From: Dehalococcoidales bacterium
GTDB taxonomy: Bacteria > Chloroflexota > Dehalococcoidia > Dehalococcoidales > RBG-16-60-22
Assembly (NCBI GenBank): GCA_016783105.1
Contig: JADHXF010000083.1
Coordinates: 1 to 5,558, forward strand
DNA: 5,558 nucleotides
Direction: 5' to 3'
Shown here piece after piece: positions 1 through 5,558 of the stretch (the first letter of the stretch is position 1; every line of letters begins with the position of its first letter). The position numbers and the translations under genes were made by a program. The notes beneath the pieces were generated by a model. The model worked only from the letters and a program-made list of their open reading frames with translations. It searched no databases and was not told where the DNA came from.

Positions 1-40
1 CATCATCAACCACCAGAATTGTCGCTTGTTTCGAAGACAT
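1..40 (-). CDS. Receiver-domain protein, N-terminal fragment (runs off left edge)
   Basis: Only the first 13 codons are in the window. They read MSSKQATILVVDD, the typical first strand and acidic pair of a CheY-like receiver domain (the two Asp that help bind Mg2+). The start is the ATG at 40-38, preceded by a strong Shine-Dalgarno sequence (GGAGGGAG at 50-43) at good spacing. A sigma70-like promoter lies further upstream. The rest of the protein is outside the window, so it could be a single-domain regulator, a regulator with an output domain, or a hybrid kinase that starts with a receiver. The family call is good; the exact product cannot be given. Confidence 0.75.
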   Translation of the reverse strand, partial: MSSKQATILVVDD

Positions 41-1421: not shown

Positions 1422-1814
1422 TCAGCTCTTTCTGAGAAGGTTTTCCACCCGTCTCAGCAACTCGTCTGGGCTTATGGGTTTGTCAGCGTAATCCTCGGCC
1501 TCAAGGCCAAAACCAGCGCTGGTGGGAATGTTGGTCTCTTTCCCTTTCTCGGAGAAACTGGTCATGATTAATATCGGTATGCCGGAAAGTTCCGGGTCCT
1601 TTTTAAGCTGTTCACAGGTGCTGAAACCATCCTGCATGGGCATGATGATATCAAGAATAATGAGGTCAGGCTTTATTTCTTTGGCTTTTCGGTAACCTTC
1701 TTCTCCATCAGAGGCGGAACTTACCTGATACTTCCTGCTCTCCAGCACTGCCCGGGTTGCTTTTACATATACCGAGTCATCATCGACTATTAAAATTTTG
1801 GCTTCCTTGTTCAA
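1422..1814 (-). CDS. Single-domain response regulator (CheY-like receiver)
   Basis: The 130-residue product is one complete receiver domain with no output domain. It shows the acidic pair D11/D12 (ILIVDDD), phospho-acceptor D55 (LIILD, followed by MP), T85 and the conserved lysine K112 in DKP, so it should be phosphorylatable. The stretch between T85 and K112 is 27 residues, about five longer than in CheY, and the partner kinase's receiver has the same length there. The start is TTG at 1814: an AGGAGG at 1827-1822 lies 7 bases upstream, and no ATG fits the frame. This ribosome binding site abuts and partly overlaps the TGA of the kinase gene, so the two are almost certainly co-transcribed and translationally coupled. 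The likely role is phosphate acceptor from the kinase, signalling by protein contact. Stop is TGA at 1424-1422. Confidence 0.92.
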   Translation of the reverse strand: MNKEAKILIVDDDSVYVKATRAVLESRKYQVSSASDGEEGYRKAKEIKPDLIILDIIMPMQDGFSTCEQLKKDPELSGIPILIMTSFSEKGKETNIPTSAGFGLEAEDYADKPISPDELLRRVENLLRKS

Positions 1815-1827
1815 TCTGTTTCCTCCT
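1815..1827 (-). promoter_or_regulatory. Ribosome binding site that decides the TTG start of the response regulator
   Basis: On the minus strand AGGAGG (1827-1822) is followed by 7 bases and then TTG (1814-1812). Its first A is the last base of the kinase stop codon TGA (1829-1827). The ATG at 1830-1828 is in another frame and cannot start the regulator. Confidence 0.8.
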
Positions 1828-3413
1828 CATGTTGTTTTTTGCTTGCGGTTGCTCTGCAATATTTTCTCTACCCTCTGTAAAAGCACGGGCGGGGAAACCG
1901 GCTTTTCCAGATAATCATCTATGGGAAGGGGGCAGCTGGTTTCCAGCTCGTAGCGCTGCCGGCTGTTGCCTTCCTTTACCGCGCTCAGTATGATGACTGA
2001 TATTTTTTTGCCCTGGATATTTTTACGCTTGCTGAGTTTTTTCAGGACTTCAAACCCGTCCATCACCGGCATCAGCATATCCAGTACAAGTATATCCGGT
2101 ATTATTCCCGCCAGTTTATCCAGCGCTTCCTGCCCATTCCGGGCGGATAGTACTGTATAGCCGCGTGATTCCAGCAACAGGGAAGTCACCTTAAGCATCT
2201 GAGGGTCATCATCAACCACCATGATGACGGCTTTTTCCTTCGCTCCCGGCTCTCCCTCATCGACCTTCTCCCGGGCCACCTTTTGCAGTGAGAAACTGAC
2301 CTTGGTTCCCAGGCCGGTTTTTTGGTCCGGGCTTTCTGCCCAGATGCGTCCGCCATGGGCTTCGATAATTTTCTTGCTCACTGACAGCCCGATACCGGCA
2401 CCGCTGGCCTCTTCTGCCATCATCCCCCGGTAGAAGTCGTCGAATATTCGGGGAAGCTCATCGGGCGGAATACCGATTCCCGTATCCGTTACCGATATCG
2501 TGATGGTATCTTCCTTCTCCTGCGCGGCAACGCTCACCGTTCCATGGATGGGGGTGAATTTGACGGAATTGCTTAGCAGATTGGTCAGCACCTGGCGCAG
2601 ACGGGTGGGGTGACCAAAGATGGTGGGGAGGTCATGAGCAGTATGATTTTCCAGCGCTACCTTTTTCTGCAGGGCCATTCCCTGGACATCGCCCAGTGAG
2701 CTTTCAATGACTTCGGACAGGAGTATATTTTTGAAATCAATCTCGCTGATTTCAATGTGGGAGATATCCAGGATATTATCGATCATATTAAGCAAGTCGT
2801 TGATACGCTGCTTGCTTCCTACAAGGAGTTCTTCCTGCTGGCTATTGATTTTTCCCACAAAGCCGCCTAGCACCACATCCAGCGAGCTTATCACCGTCGC
2901 CAGAGGGGCCCGCAGGTCATGGGAAGTGACTGATAAAACGTGTGCCAGCGTCTTGGTGGCATGAGAGAGCCGGTCGGACACGAGGTTTACCAGTTCGTGC
3001 ATAACGTAGCGACACATCGCTACATCCTGGTCACACAGCGACTGGAATTTGCCCCCATCTAGGGCAATAAGCCTGGTATCCTCGGTAGCAATGGCTGACA
3101 TGGTATAGGCGGTCTTTTCCGGGAATAAGGCCGGCCAACCGAACACCTGACCTGGCGTGATGACGTCAATGGTGGCCTGCTTTCTGGTCCGCGTTCCCAG
3201 GCGTATCTCCATCTCCAGGGATACTTTACCTTTTTCTACAATGTAGAGATAATTAGCGCCATCGCCAGCGCGGTAAACGCGGTCGCCGATGCTGAACGGC
3301 AATTCCTGGACTAGTACGGCGAGATTGTCTATCTGCTGGTCGGATAGCTTCCAAAAAAGCTGAGATTGCTTGAGAATGCCTCTGATTTTTTCCCCAGTTT
3401 GTCTATCCTTCAT
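1827..3413 (-). CDS. Soluble hybrid histidine kinase with N-terminal cNMP-binding-like domain
   Basis: The product is 528 residues without membrane segments, so it should sense in the cytoplasm. Domains in order: a cyclic-nucleotide-binding-like beta barrel (about 16-130, with IGDRVYRAGDGANYLYIVEKG); a HisKA dimerisation domain with phospho-acceptor H165 in SHDLRAPL; a HATPase domain with N-box N278/N282, G1 box DTGIGIP from D310 and G2 box GAGIGL (338-343); and a C-terminal receiver (about 395-520) with D401/D402, phospho-acceptor D445, S477 and K504. All kinase and receiver catalytic residues are present. The barrel's phosphate-binding cassette is atypical: FGW-PAL at 91-96 replaces the FGE-xAL of CRP, and the Arg that holds the cyclic phosphate is absent, so the ligand may not be cAMP. 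No HPt domain is present, so the internal receiver may gate the kinase or act as a phosphate sink. The start ATG at 3413-3411 has only a weak GAGG (3430-3427). It is first in an operon with the response regulator. Confidence 0.93.
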   Translation of the reverse strand: MKDRQTGEKIRGILKQSQLFWKLSDQQIDNLAVLVQELPFSIGDRVYRAGDGANYLYIVEKGKVSLEMEIRLGTRTRKQATIDVITPGQVFGWPALFPEKTAYTMSAIATEDTRLIALDGGKFQSLCDQDVAMCRYVMHELVNLVSDRLSHATKTLAHVLSVTSHDLRAPLATVISSLDVVLGGFVGKINSQQEELLVGSKQRINDLLNMIDNILDISHIEISEIDFKNILLSEVIESSLGDVQGMALQKKVALENHTAHDLPTIFGHPTRLRQVLTNLLSNSVKFTPIHGTVSVAAQEKEDTITISVTDTGIGIPPDELPRIFDDFYRGMMAEEASGAGIGLSVSKKIIEAHGGRIWAESPDQKTGLGTKVSFSLQKVAREKVDEGEPGAKEKAVIMVVDDDPQMLKVTSLLLESRGYTVLSARNGQEALDKLAGIIPDILVLDMLMPVMDGFEVLKKLSKRKNIQGKKISVIILSAVKEGNSRQRYELETSCPLPIDDYLEKPVSPPVLLQRVEKILQSNRKQKTT

Positions 3414-3437
3414 TCGCTTTTATTAGCCTCATTAGAT

Positions 3438-3466
3438 ATATTAATCTTAACTCGCTAGGCCGTCAA
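3438..3466 (-). promoter_or_regulatory. Candidate sigma70 promoter for the kinase-regulator operon
   Basis: On the minus strand TTGACG (3466-3461, five of six -35 matches) is followed after 17 bases by TAATAT (3443-3438, four of six -10 matches). Transcription would start near 3431, giving a very short leader that still contains the GAGG before the kinase ATG. This is a motif match only. Confidence 0.5.
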
Positions 3467-3477
3467 GGCAGAGGAAA

Positions 3478-3507
3478 CTGAACCACCACGATGACCTGTG
3501 CTATACT
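3478..3507 (+). promoter_or_regulatory. Candidate extended -10 promoter for the reductase gene
   Basis: TATACT (3502-3507) matches five of six -10 bases and is preceded by TGC, giving the extended -10 form TGnTATACT (3499-3507). Only a weak -35-like CTGAAC (3478-3483) lies 18 bases upstream, which is usual for extended -10 promoters. The start would be near 3514 and the leader about 50 bases. It lies about 10 bases from the -35 box of the divergent kinase promoter, so one bound protein could affect both. Confidence 0.5.
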
Positions 3508-3550
3508 ATTAAGCGGTTTTGAGCGATTCGTAGCTATTTATTGCGGTAAA

Positions 3551-3555
3551 GGAGA
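3551..3555 (+). promoter_or_regulatory. Ribosome binding site of the reductase gene
   Basis: AAAGGAGA (3548-3555) places GGAGA ten bases before the ATG at 3566. It supports this start and therefore supports including the receiver-like N-terminal domain in the protein. Confidence 0.75.
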
Positions 3556-3565
3556 AGTACTCAGG

Positions 3566-5558
3566 ATGCCGACAAGTTCCGAAGTGGAAAAAATTCTGGT
3601 TGTCAGTAGCCAAAATGAGCTGGCAGAATTGGCGCAGCAGGCTATGGGAACATCCTTTGAGGTGATCTGGGCGCAGGACCAGCAGGAAGGGCTGGAGAAG
3701 GCGCGAAAGGAATTCCCGGAAGTAATCATTCTGGGCCATCTGGAACCTCAAGGTACCACTTTTAACCTGCACCGCCGGCTGCGGGAGGGCTGGATAACCA
3801 GAAACATTCCGCTTCTGGTGGTGGATATTGACACTGCCGACAGGTCCAGAAGGGCGCTGACCATGGAAGAGGGCCTGCAGATGGAGGCGGACCAATACAT
3901 TTCCCTCGTCGGTGAGGACGGGCAGGCGCTTTCCCGGCTGGCGGAGCCGATTATCAGATTGAGGGAACGGGTGGGGAAACACCTGAAAGAGCGGCTAAAC
4001 ACGTTTAAAGAGGCCGTACTGGACCCGGACATTTTCTGTGTTACCTGGGAACAGGTAGCTGGCAGGGGCGCTTTCGAAATGCAGCAGGAAGAAATCATAG
4101 AGAATGCGATGAAGGCAGCCCGGAGGAAAAAGGTGCATGCGGTGAGCGTCACCGATAATCCGGGCGGCAATCCCGCCATCTCAACGGAGATGCTGTGTAC
4201 CGAGATAAAAAAGCTTGGCATTGAGCCGCTGGTGCACCTTGCCTTCCGGGACAAAAACCGAAACGAATGCGAGAGCCTTCTCTTTGGGCTGGCGGCACTC
4301 GGGGTGAGGAATATCCTGATGCTGACCGGGGACTATCCCTCCCGTGCCGGATTCAAGGGGCAGCCCAAGCCGGTGTTTGACCTGGACTCGGTGCAGGGGC
4401 TGCAGCTTGTCGACCTGATGAACCGCGGCATTGATTACGAGATGGCCGGCCGCCGGGTAACACTGGCTCCTACTGACTTCTTTGCCGGGGCCTGTATCTC
4501 TCCTTTCAAACAGCATGAGTCAGAACTGATGGGCCAGTACTACAAGCTGCGGAAGAAAATAGAGGCAGGGGCACAGTTCATTATCACCCAGCTCGGCTAT
4601 GATATGAGAAAATTCCACGAGATTCTTATGTGGCTGAAGTCCAGTGGAAATAACGTCCCGGTGCTGGCCAACATTTACGTGCTGCCTTATGGGGCGGGCA
4701 AAGTCATGCACGCGAACCAGATTCCGGGAGCGGTGGTCACCGATAAGCTCCTCCAGGATATTGACGCGGAGCGGAAGGCGGAGGACAAAGGAAGAGAGGC
4801 CAGATATTTGCGCGCGGCCAAAATGTATGCCGTGGCCAAAGGTATGGGTTTCGCCGGGGCGCACATAGGCGGGCACGGTTTAGCCTACGAGACGCTTGAA
4901 TACATCATCGAAAAAGGGGAGGAACTGGGCGGTCAATGGCGGGAGTTCATCCCCGAGTTTGACTATCCCCAGAAGAGCGGATTTTATCTTTTCAAGAAGG
5001 ATGAAAAGACCGGATTGAATACCAGGGAAGAAGCACCGCGCCAGGAAAAGCCTTCCCGGCCCGGCATTGTGCTACTCTCCCGAATCGCCCACTCTCTGAT
5101 ATTTGAGCCCAAGAGCCCGCTGTTCAAGTGTCTTAAGCCGATGGCCAGGCTGATTGATCGTTCGCCGCGGTTGAAACCGGCTTTCACCTATCTTGAGCAC
5201 CTAGGCAAAGTCATTCTGTTCAACTGTATGAATTGTGGCGACTGCGCCCTATTTGACGTCGGCTATCTGTGTCCGGTATCTCAGTGCCCTAAAAACCAGA
5301 GGAACGGCCCCTGTGGCGGCAGCTACAACGGATGGTGTGAGGTTTATCCAAACGAGCGTCTGTGCATCTGGGTCAAGGCATACCGGAGGTTGAAAGCAAT
5401 GGGAAAGGAAGAGGAGATTGGGGGAAATATGGTGCCTCCCTGCAACTGGGAGCTGTGGGAAACTTCTTCCTGGCTTAACTTCTATATGGGAAGGGACCAC
5501 CTGGCGGCCAAGACAGGCATTGCCAGGGAATCATGTCCGGAGAAGGGGCAGGATAAAT
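3566..5558 (+). CDS. Receiver-like / MetF / MetV fusion: methylenetetrahydrofolate reductase (3' end beyond window)
   Basis: The frame is open for 664 codons with no stop before the window ends. Residues about 8-130 look like a receiver domain (KILVVSS, EVIILGHLEP, DQYISL) with all key residues replaced: S14/S15 for the acidic pair, G57 for the phospho-acceptor Asp, L114 for the Lys. About 150-475 is a MetF-type TIM barrel that reduces methylene-THF to methyl-THF: TWE with E162 (likely the catalytic acid), LTGD with D256, FFAGACISPF (305-314) and IITQ with Q342 match known MetF positions. About 500-660 is the MTHFR C-terminal (MetV-type) domain with cysteines at 554, 557, 560, 569, 574, 583, 591 and 600, suited to Zn or Fe-S binding. 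In acetogens such as Moorella, MetF and MetV are separate subunits of a soluble complex; here they are fused. No signal peptide or membrane segment is seen. The likely pathway is the methyl branch of the Wood-Ljungdahl route. The C-terminus is probably nearly complete. Confidence 0.9.
   Translation, partial: MPTSSEVEKILVVSSQNELAELAQQAMGTSFEVIWAQDQQEGLEKARKEFPEVIILGHLEPQGTTFNLHRRLREGWITRNIPLLVVDIDTADRSRRALTMEEGLQMEADQYISLVGEDGQALSRLAEPIIRLRERVGKHLKERLNTFKEAVLDPDIFCVTWEQVAGRGAFEMQQEEIIENAMKAARRKKVHAVSVTDNPGGNPAISTEMLCTEIKKLGIEPLVHLAFRDKNRNECESLLFGLAALGVRNILMLTGDYPSRAGFKGQPKPVFDLDSVQGLQLVDLMNRGIDYEMAGRRVTLAPTDFFAGACISPFKQHESELMGQYYKLRKKIEAGAQFIITQLGYDMRKFHEILMWLKSSGNNVPVLANIYVLPYGAGKVMHANQIPGAVVTDKLLQDIDAERKAEDKGREARYLRAAKMYAVAKGMGFAGAHIGGHGLAYETLEYIIEKGEELGGQWREFIPEFDYPQKSGFYLFKKDEKTGLNTREEAPRQEKPSRPGIVLLSRIAHSLIFEPKSPLFKCLKPMARLIDRSPRLKPAFTYLEHLGKVILFNCMNCGDCALFDVGYLCPVSQCPKNQRNGPCGGSYNGWCEVYPNERLCIWVKAYRRLKAMGKEEEIGGNMVPPCNWELWETSSWLNFYMGRDHLAAKTGIARESCPEKGQDK

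Follow-up and report, generated by a model that had tools for sequence, protein, structure and literature searches.

Introduction

In PleD, which consists of a receiver, a pseudo-receiver and a diguanylate cyclase, phosphorylation of the receiver alters its contact with the pseudo-receiver and thereby switches an enzyme, according to the sections examined of a 2025 review, which also state that the switching of bacterial pseudo-receivers 'remains a mystery' (PMC12632262). Among the MetFV-type methylene-tetrahydrofolate reductases, 2S, 3S and 6S types and a proposed X type are distinguished in the examined part of PMC8515935, the X type having NuoEFG genes beside metFV and being reported from Desulfobacterales and Chloroflexi. 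The examined part of PMC10553843 mentions metF-HdrABC in syntrophic sulfate reducers. Two-component genes beside a metF have also been noted in marine Chloroflexi; the examined part of PMC5736913, which covers Moorella-type HdrABC-MvhD-MetVF genes as well, has metF_1 of DscP3 flanked by 'phoBR', and its main text describes no fused receiver and lacks the terms 'response regulator' and 'receiver'.

In this work we have analysed a 5,558-nt stretch of DNA from a Dehalococcoidales bacterium (the window), in which one gene joins a pseudo-receiver, a MetF barrel and part of MetV. The proposed logic is that of PleD, a phosphorylatable receiver and a pseudo-receiver controlling an enzyme; however, PleD as presented in these sections of PMC12632262 is one chain with a signalling enzyme, whereas here the receiver and the pseudo-receiver-enzyme are separate proteins. 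With the MetFV types the fusion has in common the MetF barrel and the MetV Fe-S domain with its NGPCGG motif, but types 2S, 3S, 6S and X are built from separate subunits in the examined part of PMC8515935, whereas the fusion is one chain with a shortened MetV and an added pseudo-receiver, features absent from that part. The bacterial pseudo-receivers named PsR or ALR have the same (beta-alpha)5 fold without phosphotransfer residues; a one-carbon redox enzyme as output is absent from the examined sections of PMC12632262 and PMC4395418, and here, unlike there, an acceptor-position Gly and a switch-position Asp are nearly fixed.

Searches among open-licence papers gave none that joins a pseudo-receiver or response regulator with this reductase, and the combination of receiver domain and Wood-Ljungdahl gave one paper, which from the part seen is an unrelated genome paper. 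This agrees with the first-pass annotation, whose author knew of no description of the architecture. Neither the fused architecture nor the family of pseudo-receivers marked by Gly57 was found in these papers, although such absence is no proof of novelty. We propose, with confidence just short of even, that the N-terminal domain is a docking module through which two-component signalling is linked to the reductase of the methyl branch.

Architecture and surroundings of the fusion gene

The fusion gene (3566..5558, + strand) encodes a protein of 664 aa, its stop codon lying just beyond the window end. A GGAG read from the sequence at 3551..3554 (+ strand), 11 nt ahead of the ATG, is the likely ribosome binding site. 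The earlier observation of a fusion in one frame is confirmed. A wrong start or a chance-joined frame was ruled out by the 120 listed homologues and 12 dN/dS pairs. On the - strand lie a divergent hybrid histidine kinase with cNMP_binding, HisKA, HATPase_c and receiver domains (1827..3413) and a single-domain receiver (1422..1814) with the canonical DD, Asp, Thr and Lys, both proposed here as signalling partners. The region between the kinase and fusion genes (3414..3565) holds a single promoter-like match, which is on the - strand; the + strand has none. In the window as a whole neither a tRNA nor, at E 0.5, an Rfam match was found.

Several features lie further to the left. On the - strand an apparent further receiver gene occupies window 1-40; it starts with an ATG at 40-38, reads MSSKQATILVVDD and runs off the left end. 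A NUDIX hydrolase frame (350-958, + strand, E 1.4e-11) lies in a stretch whose G+C, up to position 1400, is 0.44-0.47, against 0.54-0.56 in the fusion gene. The NUDIX part is not seen beside the receiver gene in the near-identical loci L001 and L008 because both contigs stop shortly past that gene.

The pseudo-receiver domain and its conservation

Residues 9-140 (3590..3985, + strand) have the (beta-alpha)5 receiver fold, which bears out the receiver-like fold that the annotation placed at residues 8-130. The domain matches a PhoB model at E 1.7e-9, and this match together with the fold rules out a chance likeness; its PF00072 score, 13.8 bits, is below the Pfam gathering cut-off of 30.2, and the precomputed Pfam lists give a receiver for 0/120 listed homologues of the fusion. 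The residue set of a phosphorylatable receiver, namely the DD pair, acceptor Asp, switch Thr or Ser and Lys, is absent, the five positions being S14, S15, G57, D87 and L114. The loss of the acidic pair, the acceptor and the lysine had been noticed before; D87 in place of the switch Thr is a further replacement. A receiver fold without key phosphotransfer residues is what the examined part of PMC12632262 calls a pseudo-receiver. The claim that this receiver cannot use ordinary phosphorylation is thus well supported by the fold and by residues conserved in the lost state. With Gly in place of Asp in beta3 and Asp in place of Thr at the end of beta4, an acidic residue appears to have changed its position, a shift which, judged from the sequences, might fix an active-like state.

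We aligned the window protein with the best 120 of 2,265 homologues (E <= 0.001). Within the domain P51, G57, G75, W76 and T78 are invariant (121/121). Position 87, which in a pairwise alignment falls on the switch Thr of the window's own receiver, is Asp in 115/121, Glu in 5/121 and Tyr in 1/121. Ser is found at position 15 in 100/121 and Leu or Ile at 114 in 109/121, with P61 in 118/121 and Y111 in 113/121. The dN/dS of the domain was 0.033-0.183 in 12/12 pairs, which share sequences and in several of which dS exceeds 1; for the rest of the protein it was 0.020-0.096 in the 11 pairs where it was computable. These values indicate purifying selection on the domain, mostly somewhat weaker than on the enzyme.

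Could the domain be a vestige without function? It does evolve faster than the rest, mean pairwise identity being 53% against 72% and 74% in the two enzyme parts, and the enzymes of L009 and L091 lack it. However, the low dN/dS and the invariant residues already disfavour such a reading, and a standalone copy of the domain adjoins the enzyme in just those loci where the fused copy is missing. We find it hardly credible.

The pattern of conservation bears on the docking proposal in another way. The best conserved stretches are beta3-alpha3 (0.68 bits), alpha3-beta4 (0.43 bits) and beta4 (0.55 bits), whereas alpha4-beta5-alpha5, the usual pairing face of receivers, is less conserved (1.09, 1.10 and 1.59 bits). 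The conserved stretches may therefore contact the barrel instead of a receiver. They include the beta3-alpha3-beta4 face by which the FrzS pseudo-receiver binds, according to the examined part of PMC12632262, and a pure assembly tether is for this reason a serious rival. Acting without signalling, the pseudo-receiver would tie the reductase to an electron donor (HdrABC-like or NuoEF/Fdh-like) or dimerise it. The gene neighbourhoods described below speak on both sides, and on balance we hold the tether to be unlikely.

The reductase

The barrel (4094..4792, + strand) comprises a Pfam stretch of residues 177-409 and a structural match over 145-454; it shows both the MTHFR Pfam match and the fold of MetF and is a predicted reductase. 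E162, T196, D256 and Q342, which we take, mapping by eye, to correspond to E. coli Glu28, Thr59, Asp120 and Gln183, are invariant in 121/121 aligned fusion homologues. Residues 538-629 (5177..5452, + strand) form the DUF5981 or Cys-rich half of MetV, with a score of 102.8 bits against 23 and eight Cys in 554-600, so that the eight-cysteine MetV-type domain seen earlier is present. The annotation had also described the enzyme as fused to its MetV partner, and this stands for the Cys-rich half. The N-terminal half is missing, as BLASTP aligns only residues 133-196 of a 227-aa MetV. No solved structure matched residues 499-664 by sequence at E 0.01. The best reading is that the fusion is a predicted single-chain methylene-tetrahydrofolate reductase made of a MetF barrel and the Fe-S half of MetV.

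Enzyme bodies without the pseudo-receiver exist in L013, L043, L111 and L112, and the domain is consequently not needed for the enzyme fold. Second MTHFR-MetV copies without it were observed at L111 8978-10540, L112 548-2116 and L114 7164-8264, in genomes which also hold the fusion; they lie near MetV-, cytochrome-c-like, HdrC-like and MetF genes, named by eye.

Gene neighbours of the fusions

Across two groups of bacteria, 19/23 distinct informative loci have a single-domain receiver gene within 2 kb of the fusion, namely 9/11 distinct Chloroflexota-type loci and 10/12 informative loci of the other group; none was found near the fusions L088, L090, L126 and L127. These counts leave out near-duplicates (L001, L008 and L092 of the window, L109 of L006, L115 of L007) and loci whose flank on the receiver side is too short (L005, L010, L110). 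By a rough hand estimate, resting on 5-10 receiver-like hits per genome of 1.3-2.3 Mb, chance would place a receiver within 2 kb at a few per cent of loci. The window's single receiver keeps DD, D, T and K. The hybrid kinase adjoins the same nine Chloroflexota-type loci, fragmented in L002, its cNMP_binding domain being confirmed in the window and L094 only; in 10 loci of the other group the far side has, no more than 1.3 kb away, a frame starting with a receiver, and in L007 this frame is receiver-PAS-HisKA-HATPase. Four divergent fusions (L132-L135), counted separately from the 23 loci, have no kinase, receiver or MetF gene nearby (0/4). They come from other Dehalococcoidia-class genomes, and their fast-evolving domain, on a long branch (1.02), still has Gly57 and Asp or Glu at 87.

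These neighbours, together with the relatives beside methyl-branch genes described in the next section, give circumstantial support to the earlier suggestion that a signalling protein could control flux through the methyl branch. Against docking, adjoining genes could be regulated together without any contact of their products. Taken further, the kinase system would govern expression or other targets and the domain would merely stabilise the protein as a bystander. That the divergent genes share their intergenic region would fit this, as would receiver pairs found away from the fusion, for example in L103, where the pair lies beside hydrogenase-maturation-like genes. The adjoining receiver, however, has no DNA-binding domain, and the specific residues of the pseudo-receiver are kept across two groups, so that we regard the bystander reading as very improbable.

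The tether finds an example in L094, in which two MetF genes and then HdrC-, HdrB- and HdrA-like genes (ORFs named by eye) follow the fusion in one direction, and tandem relatives of the domain adjoin FdhA-NuoE-NuoF or GltD/FlpD genes. Nevertheless, a tether leaves unexplained the kinase and phosphorylatable receiver genes beside 19/23 fusions and the receiver joined to the tandem form, and several fusion loci have no donor genes nearby.

A family of Gly57 pseudo-receivers in three architectures

Gly57 marks a family of pseudo-receivers with three forms: standalone proteins, tandem proteins that also contain a phosphorylatable receiver of the NarL type, and fusions to the reductase. The standalone proteins, found with the domain profile, are short (about 159 aa in most cases) and carry the signature LGYLEPRG..F.LH together with an extra C-terminal stretch which by eye resembles a coiled coil. 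In the 120 listed of 669 hits, some of which are fusion fragments, Gly57 is present in 119/120 and Asp87 in 117/120, Asp14 is kept in 84/120, and Arg or Lys at 114 in 91/120. The tandem form, found by genome searches, has the pseudo-receiver before the NarL-type receiver and no further domain. Among 120 listed of 2,555 hits, which belong to one subfamily, Gly57 and Asn87 were each found in 120/120, and the second receiver shows the DD, Asp, Thr and Lys motifs in 111/120. Our 20 tandem loci are mixed at position 87: 14 have Asp there and 6 have Asn. Asp87 as a universal mark of the family was rejected on these two counts of Asn.

Of the 132 domains in a tree, 64 are true receivers, and a branch with 100/99 support splits them from the 68 pseudo-receivers (27 fused, 21 standalone, 20 tandem); its support stays at 100/99 when 22 active-site-region columns are removed; the trees have 135 or 114 columns and a midpoint root, and the true receivers come solely from these neighbourhoods. 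Without the 22 columns the 27 fused domains form one side of a branch with 100/97. L001, L006, L010, L012, L014, L092, L109, L114 and L115 were omitted as near-duplicates or pieces, L010 being a fusion truncated at the contig start; L112_7563, truncated by the contig end, was counted as fused.

Might the emptied active-site cleft bind a quinone, flavin or nucleotide, with the domain exerting allosteric control as a ligand or redox sensor? Other pseudo-receivers do so, such as KaiA with a quinone near its beta3-alpha3 loop (PMC12632262, sections examined), and this loop is among the best conserved parts of our domain. However, most standalone proteins have Asp and Arg or Lys at positions 14 and 114, against Ser or Gly and Leu or Ile in the fused set, and these two states are a poor fit to one shared ligand site. 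We judge the sensor to be rather improbable.

The standalone form throws light on the loci without a fused domain. In L009 and L091 the enzyme begins at the barrel and a standalone pseudo-receiver gene lies directly upstream; in the enzyme tree both nest in the fused clade as sister to L089 and L090 (98/94), which have both genes. Loss of the fused copy in cases in which a standalone one could substitute for it is the simplest reading. We rejected the split as ancestral state, since in the tree L009 and L091 fall within the fused clade next to L089/L090. A sequencing frameshift in L009 was also rejected, as the standalone frame there ends in a C-terminal tail and a stop of its own, the enzyme restarts, and L091 is a second case. 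One standalone gene lies ahead of the fusion, in the same direction, in L089 and in L090. Two do so in L088, which therefore has three pseudo-receivers in a row (7121-10075), with a GAF/PAS kinase and a regulator of the NarL type as neighbours.

The tandem genes stand close to the same pathway: an FdhA, NuoE/F, MetV or MetF homologue lies within 1.1 kb in 19/20 tandem loci, the exception being L030, which is close to a contig end. L027 and L028 were chosen partly for adjoining MetF matches; among the loci chosen from profile hits alone, the first five being left out, methyl-branch genes are found in 15/15. One typical order is kinase, NarL regulator, tandem, FdhA, NuoE, NuoF, MetV, and another is GltD/FlpD protein, MetV, MetF, tandem, the gene families of examples being confirmed. 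These clusters resemble the X-type clusters in the examined part of PMC8515935. The tandem genes of L027-L029, L031, L096-L102, L104-L107 and L128-L131, which lie in clusters of the Fdh-NuoEF-MetV and GltD/FlpD-MetV-MetF kinds, are undescribed in the literature examined; each is a possible regulator of the complexes encoded there.

Distribution among genomes

The spread of the fusion is patchy. For genome G001, that of L008 with its 99% identical locus, the class has strong full-length matches in 5/119 genomes and the enzyme part alone in one further genome, and the order has 8 fusions among the listed matches in 156 genomes (standalone profile). In the class of genome G005 there are, with the same profile, 10 fusions among the listed matches in 22 genomes, two of them truncated by contig ends. 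At E <= 1e-27, a threshold below which the divergent fusions score, 297 genomes of the G005 phylum contained 12 fusions and 3 tandem frames, and 301 of the G001 phylum a single fusion, a single tandem and two short frames. The named records are from Dehalococcoidia, Dehalococcoidales, Chloroflexi, Candidatus Anaeroferrophillacea, Candidatus Tharpella and one Proteobacteria MAG.

A proposed mechanism and its meaning

As we envisage docking from sequence and gene order, the histidine kinase would phosphorylate the adjoining single-domain receiver, which itself has no output domain, and the phosphorylated receiver would pair with the pseudo-receiver of the fusion. Pairing would alter either how active the reductase is or how it assembles with an electron donor. 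In relatives, the tandem pseudo-receiver-receiver encoded beside MetV-MetF or Fdh-NuoEF would act likewise in trans. Docking is an economical mechanism because the single receiver has no output, the tandem protein consists of receiver folds only and the fusion has no phospho-acceptor. Since relatives are fused to the enzyme, the Rosetta-stone argument also hints that unfused members of the family bind this enzyme.

Perhaps the Gly-type pseudo-receivers are a general adaptor, which would place methylene-THF reductases and NuoEF/formate-dehydrogenase-like complexes under direct phosphorelay control in Chloroflexota and Desulfobacterota-like bacteria. We put this forward tentatively, and lean against it. 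Two-component systems would then control the methyl branch of the Wood-Ljungdahl pathway post-translationally, an outcome for which our expectation is equally guarded.

The fusion joins a pseudo-receiver to an assayable enzyme, beside a candidate kinase and receiver, and the question of how pseudo-receivers switch thereby becomes testable in vitro. The signalling domain concerned does not appear in Pfam's precomputed lists. If the docking proposal is true, a central one-carbon step in uncultured anaerobes would be under direct signalling control.
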